23,329 bases of DNA, taken from Spirogloea muscicola (Eukaryota; Streptophyta; Zygnematophyceae; Spirogloeales; Spirogloeaceae). Shown in pieces: positions 2,748 through 23,329 of this stretch. The stretch lies in the NCBI GenBank assembly GCA_009602725.1, contig WELB01000180.1, positions 171,784 through 195,112 of the forward strand. The letters are read 5' to 3'. A program made the position numbers and the translations under genes. The notes below the pieces were generated by a model. That model did no database searches and was not told where the DNA came from. It saw only the letters and a program-made list of their open reading frames with translations. The stretch's first letter is position 1, and each line of letters opens with the position of its first letter.

Positions 2748-5700
2748 ATGGACGGTCATGTCGATGAGCTGCTCGACCAGGCTGAGGCGGAGGTGCAGGC
2801 GGCGGCCGCTGGACACGCTTCGCCGCTGGCGGCAAACCAGGACCGCATCAGGACACTCTGCGCACTGCTGCAGAAGGCAGGCCACCAGCACATATTCCAG
2901 ACTCTCGCACGGCCTCAGAGATGTCCACCGCATCCGGAGCTGTATATGTAGGAGTAGTGTCCTGACTTTTGCACATAAGAGCGCGATCTGCTGCAGGTAC
3001 AGACGAGCAGCCTTGCAGAGGCCAATATGTATACAGCACGGACTGCAGCGGCAAGACTCATTCGCAACATCCGTGGTTTAGTCTCGGCCAACCCGCCGTC
3101 AATGGAAGCTTTGATAGATTTTACTCTGCAAACGCAGCTGGTGAATTGTCTTAGTGCCATACACGATCATCTGGTACCAGCTCGCAAAGCAGCATCATCA
3201 GTGGATGTGAACTCCACCATGGACTGCTTGGGAGAGGTGTACTACATCATTGAAGATCTTTCTGAAACCGCATCAGGTGAGCTTGCGGCCCTCACCACGG
3301 CCGATGTCCCCTCAAGAATTGCTGGGAAGGTCTGTGGCTCAATGATAAGCGAGAAGCACAGCATTCCCTTGATGCAGGTGTGGTCAAGGCAGGTATTCAT
3401 TTGCATGTGAAGCTGTTCCTGCGCAGGCAAAGCTGCGTGTGGCAAAGCCTTTGTGAGCAGGTTGTCAAGACTTGCGATGGGTGGAGATGATGCTCACCTG
3501 AGCACGAAGGTCCGCCGAGCACTTCTTGACTGTCTGTGCGCTTTGATCAGCCTTTCACCCAACAACCAGAGCTTGTTGCTCCAGGAACCAGGGTGGTAAG
3601 TGACACAATAGCGGTGCCAAAATTTGGCTTCTCAACAATCTACTTTCTGTGCTGGCACTCCCACTTGCCTTTTGAATGCAATCGACATCATCCAAATCCT
3701 CAGAACAAGCACAGCAACATTCCACTACAAGTGTAGCCACACTGTAACACATGAGATCGATCTCAAGCTGTACACAAACTACCATGACTCTGTGCAGCCT
3801 CGACCTGTTTAACAGACAACTAGCTGAATGTGGGGACTTCACCATGCAAGGGACCCTTGCAGGTTCGAAAAATTTCAAATTTCGAACCGAATTATCCATG
3901 ACCTTTTCGGGCCATTGAACATTTCCTCGCCCTTGCCTTCTGCAGAGTGCTCTTGACAAGGCAGAGCAGTCACGTCACTGCGCGTCACTTGCTTGCAGAA
4001 ATTCTCTTCAGGCTAAGCTGGAGGGCGCCACAATTGACTGCTCAACTCAGTAACTCCCAAGTTGTCAAGTTTCTGAAAAGTGTCCACGGCAAGAAACAGC
4101 ATGACCTTGTTGCTGAGATCCGTCAACTTGTCAACATCGTCAACAAGGCGAACGCTCCATATAGGAGGTATGTCATCGAGAAGCTTGACTTTGTCCTAGA
4201 TGTTGACCAATACGTCAGATTATCACTCATTAATAACAGTGATTGGTGTTCTGCTCTTTGTCTTTGGTGGCAGTGTGCACTCCTTTGTGTTGAAGAGTTT
4301 GAGGATTGGTGGCGCGGATGTCACCTCTCGAGATGAGAGGTGGATTGACTTCGGATATGGCGGTTTGAGTTGTTATGTGTTGAGTAACACAACTGAAGCC
4401 CGTCTGCTCGACATACATTACCGAGATCTTCAATCTGTTAAAAGTATGTCAGTATCCTTGACAGGTCATCTGCATGCAGGTGTATGAGAATCACATACCT
4501 GATTCTGTTGATTATATTTTGGACCTTCGAAATTGACATGCACATATTGACATTGCCTACCTGACCAGGGCTTTCTGATGAAATCCTCGCAATCCAGCCA
4601 ACAGATACTGTTGTGGATCGTATCGTACAGGAGGTACAATATTCAAACCTCGTGTAACCTATACGTCGCAGCTCTGACAATGTCATGACTGCAGTATAAG
4701 CAAGGCGAATCTATGACTCTTTAACTGCAGACCCTGATCAACTTCCATCCATACTCCCGCCCTACTCCTGCCTTGCAAACAGCTGCAGATGGAACATCAA
4801 GGACAATTCACGCTGGCAATACATTTGAATTGTTCAGGTAATTGGCCTTCGCTACCAGAGTACTGCAAGCTTGAAGATGTTCATGTAACATGCATAACGT
4901 TGGAATATCATTGTGCTCTCACACAGCTGCTGGCTTCTCCCAGACCTAGATTTCTTTGAGGCTTGCACTCTTCCGAAAGTGAAAGTGTGGTGTAAGGAGA
5001 AGGCCTCCATTGGCATAACAACCTCAGGCGAATATCCACCAAAGCAAAAGAAGCCCACGGCGATGCCCAAGCTTATACAACAACAAGCTGCAGAAAAGAG
5101 TGGCGCCTCTACGGGAGCTGTTGCTGCAGAAAGATCGCAACCCCTGAAGCAACACCCCTCACAGTCTCATGAGCAGGCCAAGTGTGTGAATACACCAAGT
5201 AATCAAGCCTTTCATAGGAAGCCACATTCACCGACTACTCCTCACTTTTTTTCCCACATGCCAAATGAGCTACAATATCTTTCAGAGGAACCGGTCCATC
5301 GAAGGCAACCAAGAAGAGGCTCAGCAGCAGGACTCTCCAGTCATGTTTCCCCTCTCAAAAAGCACATGAGAAGCTATGAAGAAGCTGTAGAAGGACTACC
5401 GTCGAGACGTCATCCACACCATAAGCAGCTCAGTAAGAAGAGCAGAGGCACTTTACAACTGCTGCTGCGTGGCTATGCAAGGACGCATCACTCTGGCGTG
5501 GTTCGCCTAGAGATCCTGGGTTCCAAGAAGGAGCTGCACCTGCACTTGAAGAAAGTGCAATACGAGGTATCAGGGCCGGTGCCACTATCTATATGTCATC
5601 ATGATCTATCTTCTACCGTCGATCGATGTCATCACTGTCTCATGCAACACACTGACACGATGAATGCATAGCCTATACAATGTGCAGGCCTGATCATGTA

Positions 5701-5843
5701 CTAAACCTACACTGGTGCTATTGCTGACCTTGGCAGACTAGACCTTGCAGTCACCTGTGACAAAGTTTCAATACGACCAGAAGCGTGACTTGGTCATTGA
5801 CATCCTCTTTCTCAGCCTACAAACAGTCTCCCATGGCGTGTAG
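2748..5843 (+). CDS. Candidate SYCP2-like meiotic axis protein (ARM-like plus PH-like domains)
   Basis: SYCP2 is a mammalian chromosome axis protein whose N-terminus folds as ARM-like helices followed by a PH-like domain. Coding segments seen here: start ATG 2748 in a good context (MDGHVDELLDQAEAEV), then about 2997-3377, 3427-3592, 3946-4167, 4274-4436 (or 4443), 4480-about 4500, 4573-4634, 4731-4837, 4927-5571 and 5751-5843. The segment 3946-4167 (LLAEILFRLSWRAPQLTAQL to LVNIVNKANAPYRS) reads as helical repeats, and the next exon has RDERWIDFGYGGLSCYVLS, matching the SYCP2 motif WIDF-x2-GS-x-TLSFYI at the same place after the helices. The 4927-5571 exon begins SCWLLPDLDFFEA and continues into a Lys/Gln/Ser/Pro-rich linker. 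I see no long coiled coil at the C-terminus, unlike SYCP2 or plant ASY3. Two junctions (3377 to 3427, and 4436 to 4573) do not join in frame by simple GT-AG splicing, so a sequence error, unusual splicing or decay is possible. The first intron donor is also uncertain. Confidence 0.5.
3845..3888. repeat. Two abutting perfect hairpins in an intron
   Basis: The first inverted repeat has 8-base arms (TGCAAGGG / CCCTTGCA) with one base between, at 3845-3861. The second starts at the very next base and has 9-base arms (GGTTCGAAA / TTTCGAACC) with a 9-base loop, at 3862-3888. They lie in the intron 3593-3945 of the SYCP2-like gene. The second contains a palindromic GGTTCGAA, reminiscent of a tRNA B box, but no tRNA can be folded around it. 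Confidence 0.75.
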
Positions 5844-6230
5844 GAGTTACAGCTATCAAGTAGTGCTCTGCTCTGCAGACGCCTTCTTGGCCAACAATGC
5901 GTTGATGTGCGCACTTTGCTGTGACCTGCTTAGCTGTAGGTCAACTCTGATAAAGCAGCTCAAAGGTCATTGTTCTGTGCTATGTCATGAGCTCACAGGG
6001 CAGAACAACAGGTACAGGCTATTTAGCAAGTCAACCTCCTCTCCCTCCCTTCACCTCAACGAGCATGACTTCTGAATTAAGTCAGCAAGATGCCCGTGGC
6101 AACTCATGTATGATCAGGGGACTAATAAGGAGAGTTGATGTGACAAGGAGGTAATCTGGCAAGCTGCGATTGGAGCAGACAGCCACCGTTTGATAGTCAC
6201 TTTCAATCAGGTTGCAAAAGCCTGATCTGC
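5844..6230. other. Convergent 3' region between SYCP2-like gene and farnesyltransferase
   Basis: The two genes end facing each other, so this stretch should hold both 3' untranslated regions. Some open frames cross it on the + strand (for example 5924-6075), but none continues the upstream protein convincingly. A further 3' exon of the SYCP2-like gene here cannot be excluded. Confidence 0.4.
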
Positions 6231-9200
6231 TCAAAAACATCTGCCTGTTCGGCTCATGGACCTCCAAGTTATGCTCATCGCTGAGCAATCAAATGCTGCC
6301 AAGACTAAGGAAGTAGTCACGAGCCTCTTGGTAGCGGACAATGTGCAGAGCGGCTCGGCAGGCTCCAGGAGATTGGAGTAGGGCCCGAGGACGGCGCAGG
6401 GAGGGGGAGGCGGCCATGGTGCCCCCGTATCATCCAGCTCCCAGCTGTACTGGTGCGGCATGCTCTCTGCGTGCTGCGCAGCGGACAGGCCGCTGAGGCA
6501 GTAGCAAGTGTGGTAGTAGTCGCGGGCCTTGCCAGGCTTGTCCCGCAGGCCTCCGTCGATTACCTGGCCCACAGATGCAGACACAAGCATGTGACTCCCT
6601 GCTCCCTCCTTCCAGCCGTAAGCAGGCTCCAATCTCTACCTGAGATGCACTGCCTCCAGATAGAGACCTGCTTGGAACATAGAAGGCTACCAAGTGCGCC
6701 ACAAGGATAGCAGTCAAGTATTGCAACAGGTATGCAGCCAGGAAATAGGTGATATCAAGCCGCCGACACATGACCTGCGGCCTAATCCGTTTGTGAGGAA
6801 ACCAGCAAGTACCTGGGAGCAGAGCAGCAAGTAGGCCTGGAGAGCACGAGAGTTGAATCCTGGCCACGCTTCGTTCTCCCCATCATCAACATCCACATCG
6901 CCATCCTCGTCCTGGCCCTGCCCAGCAGCGGCCACCTCGTCACCGCTGCCCTCTTCCAAAATCTCAACCTTGTGGCGGCCTGCTTGCTCTCGGTCTGAAA
7001 CATGCGGGAAGAGCTCAGCGGCCTTGACAATCACACAAATCATGTGGTCCGGCGAAGCTGGTTCCTCCGTGCCCCAGTGATGGCCGCCCAGTCCTCCAAG
7101 CCCAGCCGCTGCGCGCGGCAGCGAAGCCTCCTCCTCATGCTGGCAGCCCACGTTGGCGGCCTCTCCCTGCCCGCTGACCTCCGCCCTCCTTGCTGTGTCC
7201 TCCTCTTGCCGATTGTGATGCGCGCTTGACCCGTTGGCACTGTCCGTCACACTGCCTGCCACTTGCCCTCCTCTGCTAGTGTTCTGCTCGCCTGCCTCTG
7301 CCGCCGCGGTCTGTGATGCTGGACGCACAGAAGGCTCGTGCTCTGCAGCCGCCTTTGCACGCCATCTTTCTCGGCCAACATCATCCTCTGCCCCATCGCT
7401 ACTGCCAACAGAGCCGTTTTGGCAGCTTGGTGCCATGCCTTGACTGCCATCCTGCACTTCCCTGTCTGAGTGGCGGCTCTCCTGAGGCTGCCAGAGACCC
7501 CCTCTCATGGCCTTTCGGGGCACCGCAAAGTGGTCAGTCAGTTGCGGCATTAGCCTGTTCAGCAGGAGGATGAGGCCACCCTGGCAATGGCGGCGCAAGC
7601 AGATGGTCAGCGTAATGGGGGCCCGCACACATAACTAGTAAGCGTCCCAGATGACACAGTCAAGGTGTCTTGATAGTGCTTAGCTGCACTCAATACTTTT
7701 GAACTTTGTCACAGTTGTCAATGTGGAATAAGAAGTTGGCCTCACCTGACCTGCCAGAAAGAGTAGCAGCCATCCACGAGCTTGTTTGTCCGGCCCTGGA
7801 AGCCGCCTTCCACCTGGCCTTGACGGAACACTGCCCAGTCCTGCAAGCCACTCACATTGAGGCCTGAAAAATCTCAAGAAGCTCAGCATCTAGCTTAAGT
7901 ACTCAGCACTCACTATGATTCACATCTCAGTCGGAGGAAATCTTCACGTTGCTCAAGGATTTTTCCGAGACTGGCCATCATTGAGTTTCACGTGCAACTT
8001 CAGTTTCTCAGCTCTTCAGTACATGTCCAACTCTGACATCTTTGCTAATCGTACCAGGCAGCAGTTGGCGGTCTGCCATCTCAAAGCAAGTTGCACAAAG
8101 CCAGCGCCCATTGCAATTACCAGCAAGGAAGTCAAGTGGAGCTTGTCCACCTCGCCGGCGAGAATGGCAGCCGCGAGGCCGCAGAATGTGTACCAAGATG
8201 AAGTCGTCCATTGTGCAGGTAAGCAACTGCCTAAACGCCAATTTCTCAATAGTGACTTGATGACCAACTAAACGGCGCAGCATCAGCACTGAGACTGCCC
8301 AACTAGCCTTCTTCCATTAGCAGCCCCACCTGATTAGCGTACCATTCACGGATCCAGGCCATATTGCAGAACTGAAGTAGACTCTGTTATTTGACATATA
8401 ATCAAAGTTGCACCCGTTGCTCACCCGCCGTGTGCTTCATTGCCAGGCTCGCCCCCCGTCCCCCCCTCATATGTCTGACAGCTGGCACAAACTGGAATGC
8501 AGATGAGTATGAACTGGAATACAGATAAGTATGAAGCGCTTGGCTCTATGTGCTCATAGAACTATCTATCTACACAATAGCAGGTTGCACCCAAGGTATA
8601 CTCTCCGTTAAGATGGCGAGGTGAGTCTCCTGGCTTTGCCAAGTCACAGAACCATGGGAGATTACTGTCAGACTGCGACTCACTTGGCCAAATAATTTCC
8701 AACGCCTCTCAGGAGGTCCGGCGTTGTGATACTGAGAATGTGAGCCACCTAGGTTTAAATAGCAGCACCACGGCTTCAGCCAGCGCCCCGAACTCGACTA
8801 GTTTGCCCCCCTTAAGGTGATCCAGCGAGCAGGTCAATTTGCACGCTGCAATTCACTGCTTTGACGGACATATACTGGTCCAAGGCAGGACCCTCAACAG
8901 CGAAGCAGATGCAAAAGCACAAAGCCCAGACTCTGAGCAGCATGTCCTTTCTTTGGGCCACTCTGAGCTGCAGGAAGGTGCCAGATGCAGCTGCTGCTCG
9001 AGTCTGCATGACAGCGGAAGTTTGCGCAGGAAGTGTCAAAAGGGGCGACTCACAGCAAGGGCGGTGTAGCTGCCACGGATATCAATTTCCCCGTCGTCGT
9101 GCATGCTGCTCGGCTCGGCAAACCAGACTGTGTGTTTGTCATGTTATCAACAGTAGTGAATCCTGCTAGTGTTGAGCTTGTGACAAGCTCAACACAGTTT

Positions 9201-10343
9201 CTTAGCTGCTATGCAGTCCAAATTGCTAATGCTGTCGGTGAGATAACAGCAAGGAGTTAAGCTTGAGAAGGGCGACTTTACGTGAAACCACCGCCAGGCG
9301 CCTTCATCCTCCCGAGAAAGGCCGCCATCGCGGGCCTGGAGCGAGCAGACGTTGCGTAGGCGTCATCGGCAGCAACACCCGCCGCACTAAGCAGAGCCCG
9401 AGCAACACAGCCACTATGCTGACTTGGGCTGGAGATCCTCTCTGAAATAGCGCAACTGGCCATGACCAAGCTTAAGAGTATTTGGGTGAGCAGGGACCAC
9501 GCCTGTCGATGACTGCCAGAGCTTCGCCGCCGCCGATGGTGGCCAGCGCACACACGGCTGCGTACGTGGTTGCCAGGTGCGCCATCTGCAAGACCGATGT
9601 GCGGCGGCGCAGAGCCGAAGCTTGAGCGTCGAGGCTGCCAATCTCGATCAGGAGGGCAGGATGAGAAGCAGCATCAAAATACAAGTTGCGACATGATGAC
9701 TATGGGTGGTTGAGCACGGCGAAGTGGCAGCGGTGCAGCACGTACCTGCCCCGGCCCGCCGCCAAAGCCGCCTTCGGGGTGCTGCAACCCAGGCAGGACC
9801 CAGCGATGGCAGTGCATGCTGATCAAAGGCAGCCGCTGTCGCAGCAAGACGGAGCATGACGGCAGAGGCACCGAGACCCATCGGCCGCACCGGTGGTTGC
9901 CACCGAATGTGACGTTCAAGAAGCTGCGGCCGCCAAGGTGGGGCAAGCGCCGCACCTGGCAGCGAGCCAGGAAGGCTGCGCAGCTGTCTGCGAGGCGGCG
10001 CTCCAGCCGGTGGCCCAGCAGCGCCAGCGAGTGGAGGATCCAGTAGCACACCCATGGCCGGCTGGCACGATGGCGGCAGGGCGGCGGCCATCGCGGGCGG
10101 CGGAGGCGGCGGCGTCAGGGAGGGTCTAGGAATTTGGGTTTGGGGTTTGAGTTTGTGTTAAATGGGTATTACTGATGTGGGTTAGGAGCGGCAGTGGCGC
10201 CGGGCTCGAGGGCTGCGCGGGACTGGCGAGCAGGCCCGCGGCCGCCGCCGCCGCACCTGGCATCCAGCGCCGCGTAGAGGCCGGAGAGGCGCTGCAGGCC
10301 CTGGAGGCAGAACGCCACGTGGCGGCCCCTCCACAGCTCGATC
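6231..10343 (-). CDS. FNTB: Protein farnesyltransferase beta subunit
   Basis: The beta subunit carries the zinc site and farnesyl diphosphate pocket of the enzyme that prenylates CaaX proteins; plants call it ERA1. Exons on the minus strand: 10343?-10257, 10061-9956, 9781-9746, 9585-9503, 9335-9282, 9105-9054, 8748-8684, 8481-8425, 8193-8121, 7840-7751, 7580-6813 and 6563-6231. Family motifs appear in order: LDASRPWVCYWILHSL, CQHPEGGFGGGPGQ, MAHLATTYAAVCAL, MHDDGEIDIRGSYTALA, CQTYEGGTGGEPGNEAHGG, YTFCGLAA, VEGGFQGRTNKLVDGCYSF and GGLRDKPGKARDYYHTCYCL. The zinc ligands Asp (7772-7774), Cys (7766-7768) and His (6510-6512) are present, as are the Arg, Lys and Tyr of the active site. Exon 7580-6813 encodes about 210 extra residues compared with human. 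One intron uses a GC donor (9502-9501) and one seems to end in TG (8195-8194). The 5' end is unresolved: the first exon seen starts after a possible acceptor at 10344 or runs into a Gly-coding GGC repeat, with no in-frame ATG. Its partner alpha subunit is not in the window. Confidence 0.93.
8490..8533. repeat. 22-base tandem duplication in farnesyltransferase intron
   Basis: Two adjacent copies of AACTGGAATGCAGATGAGTATG differ at two positions (G to A in both cases). They lie just upstream, in the gene's direction, of the exon at 8481-8425. Confidence 0.8.
9169..9195. repeat. Perfect 13-base inverted repeat in farnesyltransferase intron
   Basis: The arms GTGTTGAGCTTGT and ACAAGCTCAACAC are perfect complements separated by a single base. 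The structure lies in the intron between exons 9335-9282 and 9105-9054, so it would form a tight hairpin in DNA or pre-mRNA. Confidence 0.85.
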
Positions 10344-10395
10344 CTGCCGCCGCTGCAGCCGCCGCCGCAGCCGCCGCCGCCGCCGCCGTCGCCGT
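10344..10395. repeat. GCC/GGC trinucleotide-rich tract
   Basis: Imperfect GCC triplets on the + strand read as GGC (Gly) in the frame of the first farnesyltransferase exon seen. The tract may be coding for a poly-Gly N-terminus or may sit in an upstream intron or leader; it obscures the gene's start. Confidence 0.7.
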
Positions 10396-10440
10396 GGATG
10401 GCAATGGTCGCCGTGAGCTATTGTAGGCGATAGCTTGGTG

Positions 10441-10950: not shown

Positions 10951-11545
10951 NNNNNNNNNNNNNNNNNNNNNNNNNNNNNNNNNNNNNNNNNNNNNNNNNN
11001 NNNNNNNNNNNNNNNNNNNNNNNNNNNNNNNNNNNNNNNNNNNNNNNNNNNNNNNNNNNNNNNNNNNNNNNNNNNNNNNNNNNNNNNNNNNNNNNNNNNN
11101 NNNNNNNNNNNNNNNNNNNNNNNNNNNNNNNNNNNNNNNNNNNNNNNNNNNNNNNNNNNNNNNNNNNNNNNNNNNNNNNNNNNNNNNNNNNNNNNNNNNN
11201 NNNNNNNNNNNNNNNNNNNNNNNNNNNNNNNNNNNNNNNNNNNNNNNNNNNNNNNNNNNNNNNNNNNNNNNNNNNNNNNNNNNNNNNNNNNNNNNNNNNN
11301 NNNNNNNNNNNNNNNNNNNNNNNNNNNNNNNNNNNNNNNNNNNNNNNNNNNNNNNNNNNNNNNNNNNNNNNNNNNNNNNNNNNNNNNNNNNNNNNNNNNN
11401 NNNNNNNNNNNNNNNNNNNNNNNNNNNNNNNNNNNNNNNNNNNNNNNNNNNNNNNNNNNNNNNNNNNNNNNNNNNNNNNNNNNNNNNNNNNNNNNNNNNN
11501 NNNNNNNNNNNNNNNNNNNNNNNNNNNNNNNNNNNNNNNNNNNNN
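10951..11545. other. Assembly gap (595 N)
   Basis: All bases are N. The coding frame of CAP-G is already open at the first base after the gap, and farnesyltransferase lacks a start before it, so the gap hides at least the CAP-G N-terminus. The real length may differ from 595. Confidence 1.
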
Positions 11546-14500
11546 ACGCAGGGCCGCCTCCGCGACCGCCTGGCCGGCGCACGCGCCGCGGCCGTGCGCG
11601 CGCTCGCCCGCATGGCGGACCCCGGCGACGCCGGAGACTACGCCGGCGACACCACGCTCGCGCTCTACTGCGAGCTCCTCCACACCGACAAGAGCGCCGT
11701 GAGCCAACGCAGCGCCGCACAGACCTCCATGTCTCCTTCGGCACTGCCGTCTTCTCTTGTGTCTTCCACTTGCGCCCTGACCAGAAATGTCGGCTCCACC
11801 TCCGGGCCGCCGCGGCCGCTGCTGCAGGACGTGAGGCGCGCGATCGTGGCTAGCCTCCCGCCGTGCCCGGCGGCTGCTGAGGCCGTGCTGGAGCGCGTCA
11901 CCGATGTCGACGCGGGCGTCCGCTGCGCCGCCTTCTCCTGGCTCGCTCACAAGCTGCCCATGACGGCCCTCAGGCAAGCCGCACCCATCTGAAGTTCCTC
12001 TCCTTCTCCCCCCGCCTCCCTCCTCTCTCCTTCCTCATTGGGTGTCTGTCCTCCCAACTCGGCAGTGTGGACCAGCGTGTGCGCGGGCTGCGCGAGGGCC
12101 TGGCGGACCTGACGCCGGCGGCCCGCAACGAGTGCGCCGCCATGCTGGAGTTGTGGTGCGGTCACCACTGCGGCGGCGACATGGCGCTGCTGCTCGCGCG
12201 CCTGGCGCCAGCAGCCGGGCCGCAGAATGAGGCGGTCGCCGAGCTGGCTGCACGGCGCTTTGTGGAGGCCGGGCTGCTCCGGCCGTCCCCGGGGGCGACG
12301 CTGCGGCAGCAGGCCGATTGGGCCGAGCAGGGGAGCGCTGGCAGCCCTGGCGCTGCCGAATGCGTCGCGCCAGAGCACGCCCTGTGCTTCCGCGTCCTCA
12401 CCGAGGCGCTGTACGGCGAGGCCGAGGCGAGCGCCGCCGTTCCTGAGCTGCTTGTGGTCTGCAGCCTGCCATCGGGAGGGTGGATGGAGGGAGGACTGCC
12501 GCCGTCGAGCTGACATGGCTATGACTGGCTCTTCTGCCCTGCGTCCGACGTTGATGCAGGACAAGGGCCGGAGAGCAGCGGCCACCGGCGGCGGTGAGGC
12601 GGCAATGCTCGCTGCAGAGGCGGCTGCTGTCAACGCGGCCCTGGAGGCAATGCTGCCGGCGACTGTCACGGACCACGTGCGGCTTGTGGAGAGGCACCTC
12701 ACAACCGGTGGTGCGGCAGCGCTCCTCTGCCTCCCCTCCTCCCTGCTGCTGCACTTGGCGGCGCTGCTGACGGCCACCGCCGCCGCGTCGAGCTGTGCCA
12801 GGGCCGGAGGCCCGTTTCGCCGCACGGCAGCTCCTGTACATGGCGGTGCCCATGGACTTCGCCGATGCGGCCGGGCGGGCAGCAGCCGCCGGACTCGTGC
12901 GCCGCCTCCTGCTCGACAGTGGTGGTGGCAGCGGCGGCGCTGGCTCGGAGCTCGCAGCAGCTGGCTCCGACGAGGCGCCGCCAGATCGGCCGGTCCTCTT
13001 GGCTGACAAGCAGGTCCACTGCCGCACCCTGCTGCTTTGAGCTGCCGGTATGGCTTCGCCTGATCGGTCGCATGACACGTGGCTGCTGTCGTCTCGCTTG
13101 CTCGCAGTGGCGCGACGTGGTGGACACGTTCTCGCGCCGCGTGCACGGCGAGGGCACCGAGTGGGCAGCCGCCGTCGTGGCGCCGCTCGGCGAGCTCGGC
13201 GGCTTGCCGTCAGGCGCCAACGCTCCCCGGGGAGCCACAGACTGGGGCCGCGCCCTCGGTGCTGCCGAAGTGCTGCTTTCCAGCGCCACCGGGCCGCGCC
13301 AGCTAGTGACCGCCGGCGCCAGCCCCGCCGCCCTGCTCGACCACCTGCTCCTGCCGGCGGTGAGAGCTACCGCCGCTTCTCTCCTCCGCCAGCTCTTCTG
13401 GCTAGTGGCGAGTCCTGCCAAGCCAGCGGTCACAACGCTCGCTGTTGTGCTTCTGCTACAGGCTGGTCACGGCGATTCCCCCGTCCGCACGGCGGGCCTA
13501 CGCTGCTTGGCGCTGCTCGGGCACATGGACGCGGGCGCCGCCCAGCTGGCGCTGCCGGTGCTGGAGAGAGTGGCAGCAGACGCGAACGCCAAACCATGCG
13601 AGAGGCACACTGCGGTCAAGGCCCTCGTGGACCTGACACTGTGCCACGGTGCTGATGGCCTCGATGGAAAGGACGGCGATGGTGGTGGCACAGCAGGCCT
13701 CCAGCTCTCAGACCTCCTGGTTGCGCTCCTCGACGAAGGCCAGGAACGTGAGGAGGGAGGTGAGGGAGGTGAGGAGGGAGGGGATGCAGAGGACGAGGCC
13801 GGCAGCCCAGATGAGGAACGAGGAGGGGGGGCCGTGGAGGGCATCCATGGCCTCGCTGCCGAGGGCCTGGCAAAGCTCCTGCTTTGCCGACCACCGCCGG
13901 ACGCCTCGACGGTGCCGAGCGAGACTACGAAGCCGCTGGCTCGGCTCCTGGCGCTGTACGGCTGCCTCGACCGCGAGCGCAAGCCTCGGCTGCAGCAGTG
14001 CCTCTACATCTTCTTTGAGAACTACGCGGTCCTGGCCGCTGCAAACCAGGCGAGACGTCGCCTAGCCCTGCAAAGCCTCCATGTTCTCTGCCCCTAACTT
14101 TGTCGCCACCATTGCAGGTCTTGTACATCTACGCCAGCAGACGACAGCGAGAAACCCCTCTGCCAAAGCAGGCCTGCTGATCTGGCGCTGAGCGTGCCGT
14201 CATGCTTTCAGCGCGCTATCGCCGCTGTTTTTCTCGAGGTGGTCCTGCGGAGCTGGCCGCAGCTTGCCGACGGTTCCCGTGTGGCGACTGCCAAGCGCAA
14301 GTGAGCATTAGTGTAACTACACCGATTAGAAGAGCCAGTATCTGTCATTGACTGAGACCATTTACAGTATTAGTGAAACCATTTACACTTAAGTACTTGA
14401 TTAGCTGAGGCTATCATTCAACCAAGTGATGAAATCAGTGCCTTCATGTTAACCTGTTAAGCTGATATGCAGGCCGCCCTTGTCAGCAGCTGACACCGAT

Positions 14501-16013
14501 GTCGGCTGCTCGCTGTGCGCAGGCAGGCGGCGCAGCTCGCACAGCTCATGGTCGCCCTGCTGCAGCGGCCGCTGCTGGCAGCGCAGCAGGGCGGTGACGA
14601 TGGGGAGCACCCGACGGCGGCCAGCGACAGTGGCCTCCCAGCTGCGCCGGCGCCTGTCATGGACGAGGACGACACCGACAGGGGCTACGAGGCGCTTGCC
14701 CTCCAGCTGGCGGCAGAGATCGTGCGCGGCCGCTCGCGGCCCGACCGCCGCACACTCTCGTCAATGCTTATGAAGTGCTTATCGGCACTGACGCTCCGGC
14801 CGTCCCAGCGGGAGCCGATAGCGGTCCTCCTCGCCCTTGCTCCCAGGTGCGCAGCAATACTGGACGCTTTTAGGGCACCTGACTGCAAGCCACTGATTAC
14901 ATCACACTTTACTTTTTGTCTTTTGATGGAGCTACAAATTTGGTTGCAACAGGATGGCAGAGAAGGTTGCCGGCGATGGTGCCGCATGTGTGGAGCTGCA
15001 GGCCATGACGGCCAGGCTGGAGCAGCTATCTCTTGACCGCAGCGGCGCATTTGCCGCGCGCATCCCCAACGACGACCTCGATGCTCTGCTGGATGGTCCG
15101 CGTCCTTGCATACCCAAGTACCGGCGCTGGCAACCGACTCGGCGTGCTGGGGTGGCCCACATTTGTTGCTTACTGAGAGTCGGAAGCCCCATGCTCCATG
15201 CTGCCAGGTCTGGCTGCGGCTCCATCATCAAGGGAGGGCGACAGTGTTGAGGTGGAAGACGGTGGCACTCTGGAGGAGTCTAGGCAGCGTCAGCAGTCCT
15301 CAGAAGTGCAGCGCCGCAAGTCTCGCTCAGGTGTGACTGACAGCTGGTGGTACTCTGACTGATTGATTAGCCTTAAATGCAATTAAGTTAGATGTTGCAA
15401 GCAAGCTGCAATCTTGACAGTGTAGAAGCATCATTTCTATGTCCACGACTTTACTTCTTCCTTTCTTTTTGACTTGCGTTTGTTGCAAATTATGCATGCA
15501 AGTGACGCAGGCTCACTGTCTGCATTGCCAGGCAATCCAGGGCCGCGAGCTGCCAGTGGCGACGAGGTGCCAAAGTCGAGGCGGCAACAGCCTCGCCAGC
15601 AGAGCAAAGCCCAAGCACTTGCCCGGCTGTCGACGTCCTCCACAGGCTCTGCAGTTGAGGAGCTCTCGCTGGCTGGAGACTTGGAGCCGCGGAGTACGGT
15701 TGAGGCAGTTGCAAATGAATCGAGCGATGATCAAGTGGCAACGGGGGACTGTCCAGGTGTGGACCTTGCTGTTGGCCAGAGGGTACAACATGCGAGACGG
15801 CACCGTGCTGCAGCAGTCACTGGTATGACAGATTCTGAGCGGGACATTGAGAACGTGGAGAATGTCCAGTCACTTGGTCAACCGCCGCAGCTAATGATGG
15901 TGGCTGCCAAGAGGCGCTCCAGCAAGGGGGGGGCCATGTCTCACATTAGGCCAGCTTTGATGGAGAACCTGCTGCTCAGTGAAGAACGGAGTGCAGCTTC
16001 TTCGGCAAGCTGA
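11546..16013 (+). CDS. NCAPG: Condensin complex subunit CAP-G (condensin subunit 3), N-terminus in gap
   Basis: CAP-G is a HEAT-repeat subunit of condensin I that binds DNA with CAP-H during chromosome compaction. Exons: <11546-11698, 11828-11973, 12066-12438, 12560-12707, 12802-13013, 13108-13359, 13462-14049, 14212-14300, 14523-14846, 14953-15095, 15208-15330 and 15532-16013. They sum to 1011 codons with consistent phases. Family landmarks: DVRRAIVASLPPCPAAAE, SVDQRVRGLREGLADL, RRAAATGGGEAAMLAAEAAA (as in plant CAP-G), GPEARFAARQLL, SPVRTAGLRCLALLGHMD and AAEGLAKLLL in the C-terminal Cnd3 domain. An acidic Glu/Gly insert lies at about 13736-13830 and a disordered, charged tail from about 15208 to the stop. 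Roughly 180 N-terminal residues expected from human CAP-G are missing into the gap. Two introns start with GC (11974, 14050). The donor at 12439 (GTTCCT) is weak and could be wrong. The tail exon 15532-16013 might hide a small intron. Confidence 0.93.
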
Positions 16014-19379: not shown

Positions 19380-19448
19380 GGGTTCAGGGTCTAGGGTATA
19401 GGGTTTGACTTAGGGTTCAGGGTTGAGGGTTTAGGGCTTAGGGCTTAG
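19380..19448 (+). repeat. Degenerate interstitial telomere-like repeat (TTTAGGG type)
   Basis: About ten degenerate units with a GGG core spaced six to nine bases apart, including TTTAGGG, TTCAGGG, GGGCTTAGGGCTTAG and GGGTCTAGGGTATAGGG. The unit matches the plant and green algal telomere repeat TTTAGGG. It sits about 130 bases upstream of the start of the minus-strand zinc-finger gene. Confidence 0.75.
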
Positions 19449-20073: not shown

Positions 20074-20714
20074 AGCTGCTAAACAGTAATTAGCTAACTG
20101 GGCCATGGATCAGGGTGCAAGGCCTTGGACCCCACCCACCCAACTCTGGATCTAAAGCTTGAGCTCCACTCTTGCCCTTATCCTTTCTGTCCTGAGCATC
20201 AGTTCATGGACTGAAGGCCTGCATAATGCAAGGCAGAACTACTAGGCCTAAGCAATGCCTTGGCGTCTGCACTCTCGGTGCTCCTCTTCTAGAGCAGTCT
20301 CACTGCTTGGTAGGAGCAACGCAGGCCGGCGCTTAGGCATATGGGGATGTCGCACGTCTGGCATTCAAGCAGGCTTTGGCTTTGGAACTTGCTCGCAGGA
20401 TCTTGGAGCTATGCCAGCTTCTGGCATCCAGCATGCTCGCCTTGGCAGTCGTTGTCACTGGGGCTCACGTCTCAGCTCAGTTTGACATACGTGCCGCACG
20501 GTGCAACATGGCTGCTGCTTGGAGTGACCATCTTCCCCGCAGCTCAGACCGACAAGCAGCGCCGGCTCACAACCGCCTGACGAGCTCATTTGCTGCGACT
20601 TGCCGAACCTGCTTGAGGGCCTGGCGATGGCTTCTCGATTGCAGCGGCGAGTCTGTGCAGCCAGCGGCGGCACAGGGCAGCGCAGCGAGGTAGGAAAGGG
20701 GCGGCAGCGCCGCC

Positions 20715-23098
20715 TCAGTTGGACCAGACATGCACAAGGCCGTTGCGGTTGCCTGTATAGATCTCATTGCGCTCCTCGTCGTAGAAGAGGGCGGTCACGT
20801 CTTCGAGCGCCTCGGCGACGCTTGAGCGGATGACGGATGAGTTCGCTGACGCCCGCGGCGCAATCTGCACGCTCTTGTCGTCCGCCCGGATCTTGGCCAT
20901 GCAACGACCTGTGAGTATATTGCTTATGTTGATCGAACCTGGCCAAGCAAATCACACGCCAGCACCAATGCGCGCATCAGTCTCCGCAAAACTGCTCATG
21001 GGTCATTAGCCTTTAGCTTCTACATCACTGTAACCCTAGCCATTTACGCAGATTCTCCGCAATTGAACTTTGGGACCTCAAGCACTTCGCCAGGTGAGCA
21101 GTAACGGAAATGCCCAAGTGCACAAGTAAACTATACTGACAGCAGCAGCGACCAGCACATTGGTAGAGCCGGCAGCACCACGGCTGCTGAAGGTGGCGGG
21201 CTCACCGCAGCCAGCGGCATCAGGAAAGGCAAGCGGGGAGGCCTTGCAGTAAGAGAAAATTAGGTCCTGTTCGGACGTAATGTAGATGTTGTTGGTATTA
21301 CAGTCGGGGTACCAAAGCAGGTGGTCCTCAAATTGTGTGACAAGCTCGCCACGGAAGTTCCAGACGGCCACCGTGCGGTTACGGAACGTCAAGAAGAGCT
21401 GGTTCTCGTAGAGGAATATAAAAGCTGACGGTGTCATGAACTCGGTCGCGCTCACCTCCGTCAGGTGCAGGTTCCGCACCTGTGCCAGTAACCCGACTAC
21501 CATACAATTAGTCCAGATCATTGAAGCTCAATCACGGTGACATTGGGACCAACTACAACAGTGGGAACGCCCAGGCAACAGTCGAATCAACTCACGTCGA
21601 GGATCTGGAGGTTCTCGTTTTCCTGCTTCACAAGCAGCTTCTCGTTGAACTGCTCAATGAAGTCCACCTTCTTGTTGCGATGCAGCAGGTGGTTGAAGCG
21701 CTTGAGCACCGTCCCGTCCTCAATGGACAGGATCGTGAGCGTCACGTGGCTTGGCTGCCGGTTGAAGATGAGCAGCATGATGCCAGGGCTGCACAATGTA
21801 CCATCACACGCCAGCAAGAGCTATAAGCAACCAAGCATCCTTCTTCATCTCTCTCCCCCCGCCGCCTACTCTCCATCTTCCATACAGATAGTGCTCCAGC
21901 AAGGTGAGCTAGAAGAGATGCCAACAGACGAGCAGCAGTGTCCCCTCACCTTATCTTGATTTCCTGGACATTTTTGTTGGCGACAGAGTAGAGGAGGTTG
22001 TAGTTCTTGAGGTCAAAGACCTTGTAGATACGTTCCGCAGCGGAGTAGGTGAGAACTTTGCCGTTGACGTCATCAAACTCAACGAAGCCCGGCCAGCGCA
22101 GCGACTCAGACTCAAATAGCGGGAAGCCGGCGTCAGGCTGGCCGCGCCGGATGTACTCGATCGGCGTTGTCCGGCACTTGAGTGACGAGAAATTGTCACT
22201 CTCGTACACCGACACAGTTATGAGTGAGTCGTTGTTCTTGTTGTGGAACAGCGATCGAATCACCTCGTCCGCGTGGATGTTCAGAAAGCAGATGCGCTTG
22301 TTTGTCTCTGGACATGAACAGCGCCAGTGACCAAACAACTTAGGCGGACTGGAAAAGTGGCCTTGACAAGCGGGAGAGCAAGCAGCACACAGGGTAAGTG
22401 GGGTGGGGTGAGGGGGGGATAGCTGGAGCTTTTCAGAGAATAGGTGCACTGGAGGAGGGCTGTAGAGGAGAGAGGAGGGAGGCGGGAGGAGAAGCTCCAT
22501 GGAGCTGCCCTAGAGCAGAAGGCATAGGGCCAAACAAAGGAAGGTGACAGGCAATGTGGAAGGAGGCGGCCGCATAACAATGCCGAGCCAATTGCGGCGG
22601 CGGGCCTGGCACCTCGGCTGAATGCAGCACAAACGCCGGAGTGGGCGAGCGCAAAGATGACGTCGCGCGCCGCCACGATCTCCACAATGCGCGACCGCTT
22701 CTTGAGGAAGGGCAGCTTCACAAACTGGTGCGCCTTGGGGTCATGTGTGTCAAACTCCTCCTGCAGCAGGAAAGGCGCATGGAAAAGGGCGAAGGAGGAA
22801 ATGCAGGGTCAGCCTGTGACAAGAAGAGGGGACAGGGAGGGGCAACAACAGCATGGGTGTTCAAGGGTGGGCCCGAACGCAAGGCTGGGGGGAAGAGACG
22901 GTGAGGGGGGGGCCGGGGCTTGAGAAAGAGGGTGGGAGACAGTAAGCAGGGAGAGGAGGGAGAGAGAGTGGCGGGCGAGAGGGAATGCATAGGACCAAAG
23001 TGAAGTTTAGGACTGAGCAGTGGAGACCAAGACGTGTACTGGGTGATGGAGGGCCTGAGTAGCCGAGTACAGAGACAAGCACACCCTATGGACTTACA
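20715..23098 (-). CDS. Conserved plant-type WD40-like protein, function unknown
   Basis: Exons on the minus strand: 22760-22613, 22307-21950, 21788-21596, 21479-21206 and 20938-20715, all GT-AG and phase-consistent, giving 398 residues. A further upstream exon ending at 23098 (donor GTAAGT, reading HFLCNSD in phase 0) is plausible, but its start is not found. Landmarks: KKRSRIVEIVAARDVIFALA, NNDSLITVSVYESDNFSSLK, FESESLRWPGFVEFDDVNGK, SPGIMLLIF, HLLHRNKKVDFIEQFNEKLL, ENQLFLTFRNRTVAVWNFRG, WYPDCNTNNIYITSEQDL, SINISNILTGRCMAKI, and the end TGNRNGLVHVWSN. These match, nearly residue for residue by memory, an Arabidopsis transducin/WD40-like protein pair of about 460 residues and unknown role. 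The repeats should form a beta-propeller scaffold. About 60 N-terminal residues relative to the plant proteins are not located and may lie in 22761-23329 or beyond the window. Such strong conservation suggests an essential partner-binding surface (inference). Confidence 0.88.

Positions 23099-23247: not shown

Positions 23248-23250
<3 letters not shown>
22761..23250 (-). other. 5' region and probable first intron of the WD40 gene
   Basis: The stretch 22860-22990 is strongly purine-rich on the + strand (pyrimidine-rich on the coding strand), fitting an intron with a very long pyrimidine tract. A canonical GTAAGT donor is at 23097-23092 on the minus strand. No initiator ATG that joins in frame was found. 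Confidence 0.5.

Positions 23251-23329
<79 letters not shown>
23251..23329. repeat. (GA)n microsatellite at window edge
   Basis: A perfect GA dinucleotide run of 79 bases reaches the last base, so the sequence ends inside a simple repeat. This is a typical place for an assembly to stop. Confidence 0.98.

Follow-up and report, generated by a model that had tools for sequence, protein, structure and literature searches.

A gene on the forward strand of the Spirogloea muscicola genome is likely to be this alga's counterpart of SYCP2 in animals, Red1 in yeast and ASY3 in plants, or else a close derivative of that group of meiotic axis proteins. The gene has several exons and occupies about 2748–5843 of the window, the stretch of 23,329 nucleotides that was analysed (C180:171784–195112; contig WELB01000180.1, in a genome of 153 Mb and 471 contigs), with a cyclophilin-like stretch on one side and a minus-strand prenyltransferase gene on the other. 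Its product probably consists of an ARM-like domain followed by a PH-like domain and is probably kin to SYCP2, because the match to SYCP2 is colinear, the spacing is equal and a candidate closure motif lies at the expected place. By kinship and presumed mode of action it is probably a divergent axis protein of the SYCP2/Red1/ASY3 kind; we withhold full SYCP2-type membership because the coiled coil that belongs to that type was looked for and not found.

Splice sites and reading frames were modelled from the DNA, and the exon structure, apart from the end of exon 1, is supported by comparison of three copies of the gene in the genome (see below). Exon 1 (2748–2920, +), which encodes the N-terminal part (MDGHVDELLDQAEAEV...FQTLARPQ), is open and conserved in all three, as is the ATG at 2748; its 3′ end is assumed, the only phase-0 GT donors among the listed sites, at 2760 and 2793, both falling within the conserved stretch. 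ARM-like helices are encoded by exon 2 (2997–3276, +; alternative acceptors at 2982 or 3003), whose GTGAGC donor and frame are kept in the three copies at 93–96% identity, by exon 3 (3427–3592 or 3595, +; 97–98% identity) and by exon 4 (3946–4167, +; 90–93% identity), which ends the ARM-like part with ...LVNIVNKANAPYR and measures 222 bases in the window copy against 225 in the other two. Exon 5 (4274–4443, +; 94–95% identity) opens the PH-like domain with its WIDF motif (VHSFVLKSLRIGGADVTSRDERWIDFGYGGLSCYVLSNTTEARLLDIHYRDLQSVK), and the intron that separates it from exon 4 is only 71–82% identical among the copies, compared with 90–95% for the flanking exons. From order and length, the PH-like region appears to extend past 4443 through exon 6 (4569–4633, +; 85–91% identity) and exon 7 (4783–4837, +; LQMEHQGQFTLAIHLNCS; the start at 4783 keeps the frame open in all three copies) into the beginning of exon 8 (4944 to about 4990); the confident part of the profile alignment ends in exon 5. 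The remainder of exon 8 (4944–5566, +) holds the closure-motif candidate, a less conserved linker and a conserved C-terminal block, and exon 9 (5751–5843, +) supplies the C-terminus, its frame ending at a stop at 5841–5843 in the window copy. With exon 1 included, the deduced protein has about 615–620 residues. Our first gene model, with exon 7 from 4731 and exon 8 from 4927, gave no open frame in C27 and C28 and was replaced by the starts at 4783 and 4944, and an exon 2 running on to 3377 before a 49-base intron was ruled out by the conserved GTGAGC donor at 3277. A sequence-only reading of the window had proposed a coding span of 2997–4443; the exons it named at 3946–4167 and 4274–4443 are as it described them and both are conserved in the two other genomic copies, while the stretch behind 3276, at which exon 2 ends, proved to be intron and the PH-like region does not appear to stop at 4443.

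The two further copies, on contigs C27 and C28, were located through the Pfam families of the neighbouring genes, and they align with the window gene from end to end, with identities of 85.4% and 86.5%. When the whole genome was searched at the protein level, 21 exons were matched, seven each on C28, C27 and C180, and, with E values up to 10 and the best candidates scored, no fourth place was found. The exon 2 and condensin matches lie 10471, 10483 and 10556 bases apart in the three copies. The ARM–PH module is coding and under constraint (purifying selection), because identity among the three copies is 85–98% in exons and 71–91% in introns, and because the three pairwise Ka/Ks values are 0.26, 0.27 and 0.20 for exons 2–7 (0.45, 0.39 and 0.34 for exons 2–8). 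Invariant columns make up 196 of 223 in the ARM exons, 103 of 113 in the PH-like part, 99 of 148 in the linker and 14 of 36 in exon 9. Several genes are present in two to four places in this genome (C180, C27, C28 and other contigs), and, where this was measured (the SYCP2-like gene, ASY1 and the Mnd1 region), the copies share about 84–90% identity along most of their length, in introns as well as exons. This has the look of a diverged polyploid, a hybrid or an unmerged assembly.

The similarity to SYCP2 was assessed by profile comparison with hhalign. The human query was confirmed as SYCP2 by its match to PDB 5IWZ at 729 bits; 5IWZ reads EEFWIDFNLGSHTLSFYI, so that the SYCP2 motif given in the sequence-only reading was correct. 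The N-terminal region of human and mouse SYCP2 against the three algal copies gave a score of 34.2 at an hhalign probability of 28%, and none of 500 column-shuffled decoys reached that score (best 25.0); an earlier three-copy run gave 32.9 (0 of 400 decoys, best 27.7), and the window sequence alone, in the first gene model, gave 29.6 (0 of 301 decoys, best 25.6). Over all runs the probabilities lay between 15 and 32%, and the pairwise E values against human plus mouse SYCP2 were 0.0005–0.0006, with a confident core confined to the last ARM helices and the start of the PH domain, where exon 5 aligns with SYCP2 EEFWIDFNLGS.TLSFYI. At low threshold the alignment is colinear across 337 columns, with low confidence outside the core. 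The aligned core begins at residue 241 in the human protein and 243 in the algal one, an offset of 2 with exon 1 joined at its assumed place; an offset of at most 2 was seen in 16 of the 500 decoys. About half of the score comes from the WIDF block: with WIDF masked it fell to 17.7 in an unchanged register (decoy p about 0.15). In the first gene model, the ARM part alone scored 12.4, which is no match, and the part from the hinge onward 22.2. Among the 202 stop-to-stop frames of at least 60 residues in the window, the exon 5 frame was the top scorer at 22.3.

Searches without a chosen partner were silent. Neither SYCP2_ARLD nor SYCP2_SLD was matched in Pfam up to E 1, where the human SYCP2 control gave 238 and 160 bits, nor up to E 10 with single and three-copy queries, a range in which the HMMER filters drop most matches above 0.1; a PDB sequence search with the same two kinds of query and the same E limit of 10 did not retrieve 5IWZ. 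The models PF18584 and PF18581 found no match in the whole genome, but the controls of that search were likewise silent. A pattern search for relatives returned 389 stretches in prokaryote genomes and 24 in viral contigs, none of which was confirmed. The profile evidence appears real but modest: the score stands above chance, because no decoy in 500 reaches it, and is weakened by its dependence on the WIDF block. The SYCP2-like order, spacing and motif first read from the letters are borne out in their colinearity, their offset and their standing among decoys, but not by the hhalign probability or by the blind searches. An unrelated ARM protein did not emerge as the top match, yet no Pfam family passed the cut-off either, the best trace being SAPS at E 0.16 in one of the three copies.

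Directly behind the PH-like domain, at 4994–5053 (+), lies a candidate HORMA closure motif, KEKASIGITTSGEYPPKQKK, in which KEKASIGITTSG is invariant across the three copies; the post-PH sequence CKEKASIGITTSG is likewise common to all of them. In Red1 and SYCP2, the HORMA-binding closure motif directly follows the ordered N-terminal domain, and in Arabidopsis the ASY3 motif comprises residues 8–35 and that of ASY1 lies at its C-terminus (PMC6349405). We compared the core KEKASIGI of the gene with TRKASITV... at the end of the algal ASY1, GRKTSMVR... at the end of Arabidopsis ASY1 and SRKISIGV near the start of Arabidopsis ASY3. With a core drawn from the last three, KEKASIGI was the best-scoring position in each copy (of 550, 557 and 557 positions). 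In the three copies, 17, 45 and 29 of 5000 shuffled 30-residue post-PH segments scored as well, as did 129, 158 and 145 of 2000 whole-protein shuffles, figures to be read with the fact that the core was picked after the sequences had been seen. The Arabidopsis ASY3 motif on its own gave no significant match to the post-PH segment of the C27 copy (581 of 5000 shuffles were as good), and in the whole C27 protein its best match lay elsewhere (2378 of 5000). We regard the KEKASIGI region as a candidate closure motif, which owes its weight to its position, the one that the motif has in SYCP2 and Red1.

A presumptive partner is encoded in the same genome. The HORMA exons of an ASY1 gene carry SACKMVRTLVQLMRTLD, identical to Arabidopsis, and in two copies (the third, C118, was left out) the last two exons join to give a tail of ...SQRTRKASI followed across the joint by TVDAINQAMKRFKSEP, laid out as in Arabidopsis ASY1, ...RRGRKTSMVREPILQYSKRQKSQAN. 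With Arabidopsis ASY1 as the tblastn query, the region of that protein that links the HORMA domain to the tail gave no significant match apart from a VKSVLDPCE stretch. Behind the HORMA domain, the algal ASY1 copies L032 and L033 contain AKRPRGRPRTRALA, which looks AT-hook-like by eye.

No C-terminal coiled coil was found in the three deduced proteins by heptad scoring, in which Arabidopsis ASY3 and ASY4 served as positive controls. The 28-residue maxima were 1.15, 1.19 and 1.28 in the three copies, none reaching 1.3, compared with 1.54 and 1.65 in ASY3 and ASY4, which contain 38 and 53 windows of at least 1.3, respectively. At 21 residues, the copies have three, four and seven windows of at least 1.3, none of which starts in the final 250 windows; scores there peak at 1.13, 1.17 and 1.16. 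What the C-terminus does contain is the conserved block KKSRGTLQLLLRGYAR..SGVVRLEILGSKKELHLHLKK at 5435–5566 (+) in exon 8, with 37 of 44 columns invariant compared with 99 of 148 in the linker. The block matches no Pfam family, gives only hits of E 0.46 or worse in the PDB, mostly antibody light chains, and finds nothing below E 1 in its own genome besides the three copies.

Three other accounts of these observations have to be weighed. The gene might encode an unrelated ARM/HEAT-repeat protein that contains WIDF by chance and has no role on the meiotic axis; no family model matches it, the profile score rests on a short block that loses significance when WIDF is masked, the ARM part matches nothing by itself and the best sub-threshold trace belongs to SAPS. 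We nevertheless consider this distinctly unlikely, given that the register is colinear and the spacing equal over the module, that exon 5 leads all 202 frames, that a motif resembling the ASY1 tail lies exactly behind the PH-like region and that SYCP2-type genes have already been reported from green algae. That the gene encodes a full SYCP2-type ASY3, with a coiled coil that escaped us through the gene model or sits in an unrecognized exon, is improbable: a coiled coil is part of the definition of the family, DNA was the sole guide to the 3′ end of the model and the last exon of the window copy is frameshifted, but only about 370 bases separate the stop shared by the other two copies (corresponding to window 5861–5863) from the end of the facing prenyltransferase frame at 6231, the listed frames of at least 45 residues in 5500–6500 score at best 1.33 over 21 residues, where Arabidopsis ASY3 and ASY4 reach 1.69 and 1.74, and the 28-residue maxima of the deduced proteins fall short of both controls.

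The remaining account concerns the window copy: if the genome is polyploid or hybrid, this one of the three copies may be decaying, with its function partly lost. In the window copy, use of the stronger GTAAGT donor at 3596 would create a TGA over the exon 3/4 joint (TG/A, where the other copies have TG/C); exon 4 is one codon shorter, and the loss of a single base from exon 9, relative to both other copies, alters the last residues. The GTGGTA donor three bases upstream, at 3593, nevertheless leaves the frame across that joint open, and comparison with the other copies still gives a Ka/Ks of 0.26–0.27 over exons 2–7, so that we think decay rather unlikely.

The sequence-only reading had also presented the module as unheralded in plants and algae and as pushing back its age; this does not hold, as Archaeplastida SYCP2-type genes and an origin in LECA had already been published. 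The survey of 343 genomes and transcriptomes by Tromer et al. (2021; PMC8131943) defines the SYCP2-type by its ARM–PH–coiled coil topology, Archaeplastida included, with a profile E value below 0.01 to the last ARM repeats and the full PH domain as the criterion of similarity, and deduces that LECA had a single gene of this type. The same paper describes a duplication of ASY3 (I–II) in Chlamydomonas reinhardtii, an algal SYCP3-type ASY4L and the loss of ARM and PH from ASY3 in Spermatophyta, and lists Marchantia among the species in the search path of its Figure 2. A plant survey of 2023 detected ASY3 in chlorophytes (PMC9957857), and RED1 of the brown alga Ectocarpus has ARM, PH, a coiled coil and HOP1 binding (PMC12678776). 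In the limited body of literature covered, we found no description of an algal protein that combines an ARM–PH module with a closure motif of the plant type, nor of an ARM–PH axis protein lacking a coiled coil; these two features are possibly what is new here.

Set beside these systems, the algal protein shares with the N-terminal region of mouse SYCP2 (5IWZ), in which an ARM-like and an Spt16M/PH-like domain precede the closure motif, the order, the hinge and the WIDF-containing start of the PH-like part, together with the spacing from the N-terminus and, in candidate form, the motif directly behind it. It differs in being too diverged for Pfam and PDB sequence searches, in its length (compared with 1500 residues) and in that no C-terminal coiled coil was found. 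Arabidopsis ASY3 resembles it in the closure-motif-like SRKISIGV, but seed-plant ASY3 has the coiled coil and not the ARM and PH domains, the reverse of the alga. The archaeplastid SYCP2-type ASY3 proteins, such as Chlamydomonas ASY3 I–II and that of Marchantia, have the module in the green lineage as this protein probably does, but followed by a coiled coil, a comparison made with their published description. Ectocarpus RED1 also combines ARM and PH in an alga, with HOP1 binding as a feature of its own; it is from a brown rather than a green alga and possesses a coiled coil (residues 1075–1291, modelled with AlphaFold2).

Among other meiotic families, the genome contains Mnd1 and TBPIP/Hop2. 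It also contains TP6A_N, which is common to Spo11 and topoisomerase VI, and Rad21_Rec8_N, which alone cannot separate Rec8 from Rad21. An SCP-1 (ZYP1) model found no match in the genome, its controls being likewise silent. Elsewhere in the window there are a fragment of a cyclophilin-type isomerase at about 520–760 (+; Pfam Pro_isomerase, E 3e-9), the facing prenyltransferase gene at about 6231–10400 (−; Pfam Prenyltrans), by eye a farnesyltransferase beta subunit, a condensin subunit CAP-G-like gene at about 11546–16010 (+; Pfam Cnd3, E 2e-20), preceded by an assembly gap at 10951–11545, and a gene at about 20700–22800 (−) that matches DUF7899 strongly (E 9e-70 and 2e-41 for two exon frames). 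Degenerate TTTAGGG-like repeats, seen by eye at 10120–10170 and 19380–19445 within the contig, are reminiscent of interstitial telomere sequence, and the window begins with a poly-A run (1–122) and ends with a long GA repeat (23250–23329).

The binding partner of the SYCP2 and Red1 N-terminal region is uncertain, with cohesin, chromatin and centromere proteins having been proposed. If the algal protein adopts the fold that we infer, its ARM-like helices and PH-like domain would anchor it on meiotic chromosomes, and the ASY1/HOP1 HORMA domain would capture the short motif behind them, which would load ASY1 onto the axis, where it would promote break formation and interhomologue repair. Without a C-terminal coiled coil the protein would not by itself build an axis filament, and the conserved C-terminal block would stand in the place of the coiled coil. 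On this basis we tentatively put forward, as a possibility to which we give less than even weight, that the gene kept the ancestral ARM–PH module with a plant-like closure motif and exchanged the coiled coil for another C-terminal block, making it a non-polymerizing, HORMAD-recruiting axis adaptor.

West et al. (2019; PMC6349405) described the plant ASY3 without the N-terminal domain of Red1 and SYCP2 as a mystery, the evolutionary part of which is answered by Tromer et al. (2021), as they describe it, in that the module is ancestral and was lost in seed plants. If the reading of the algal gene is correct, an ARM–PH module placed directly before an ASY1/ASY3-like closure motif would unite both published observations in one molecule. 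An adaptor of the kind proposed would then show why seed-plant ASY3 begins with its closure motif, all the parts that precede it having been lost, and would provide a testable truncation point for ASY3; it would also prompt one to ask how an axis can function if its core protein has no coiled coil.
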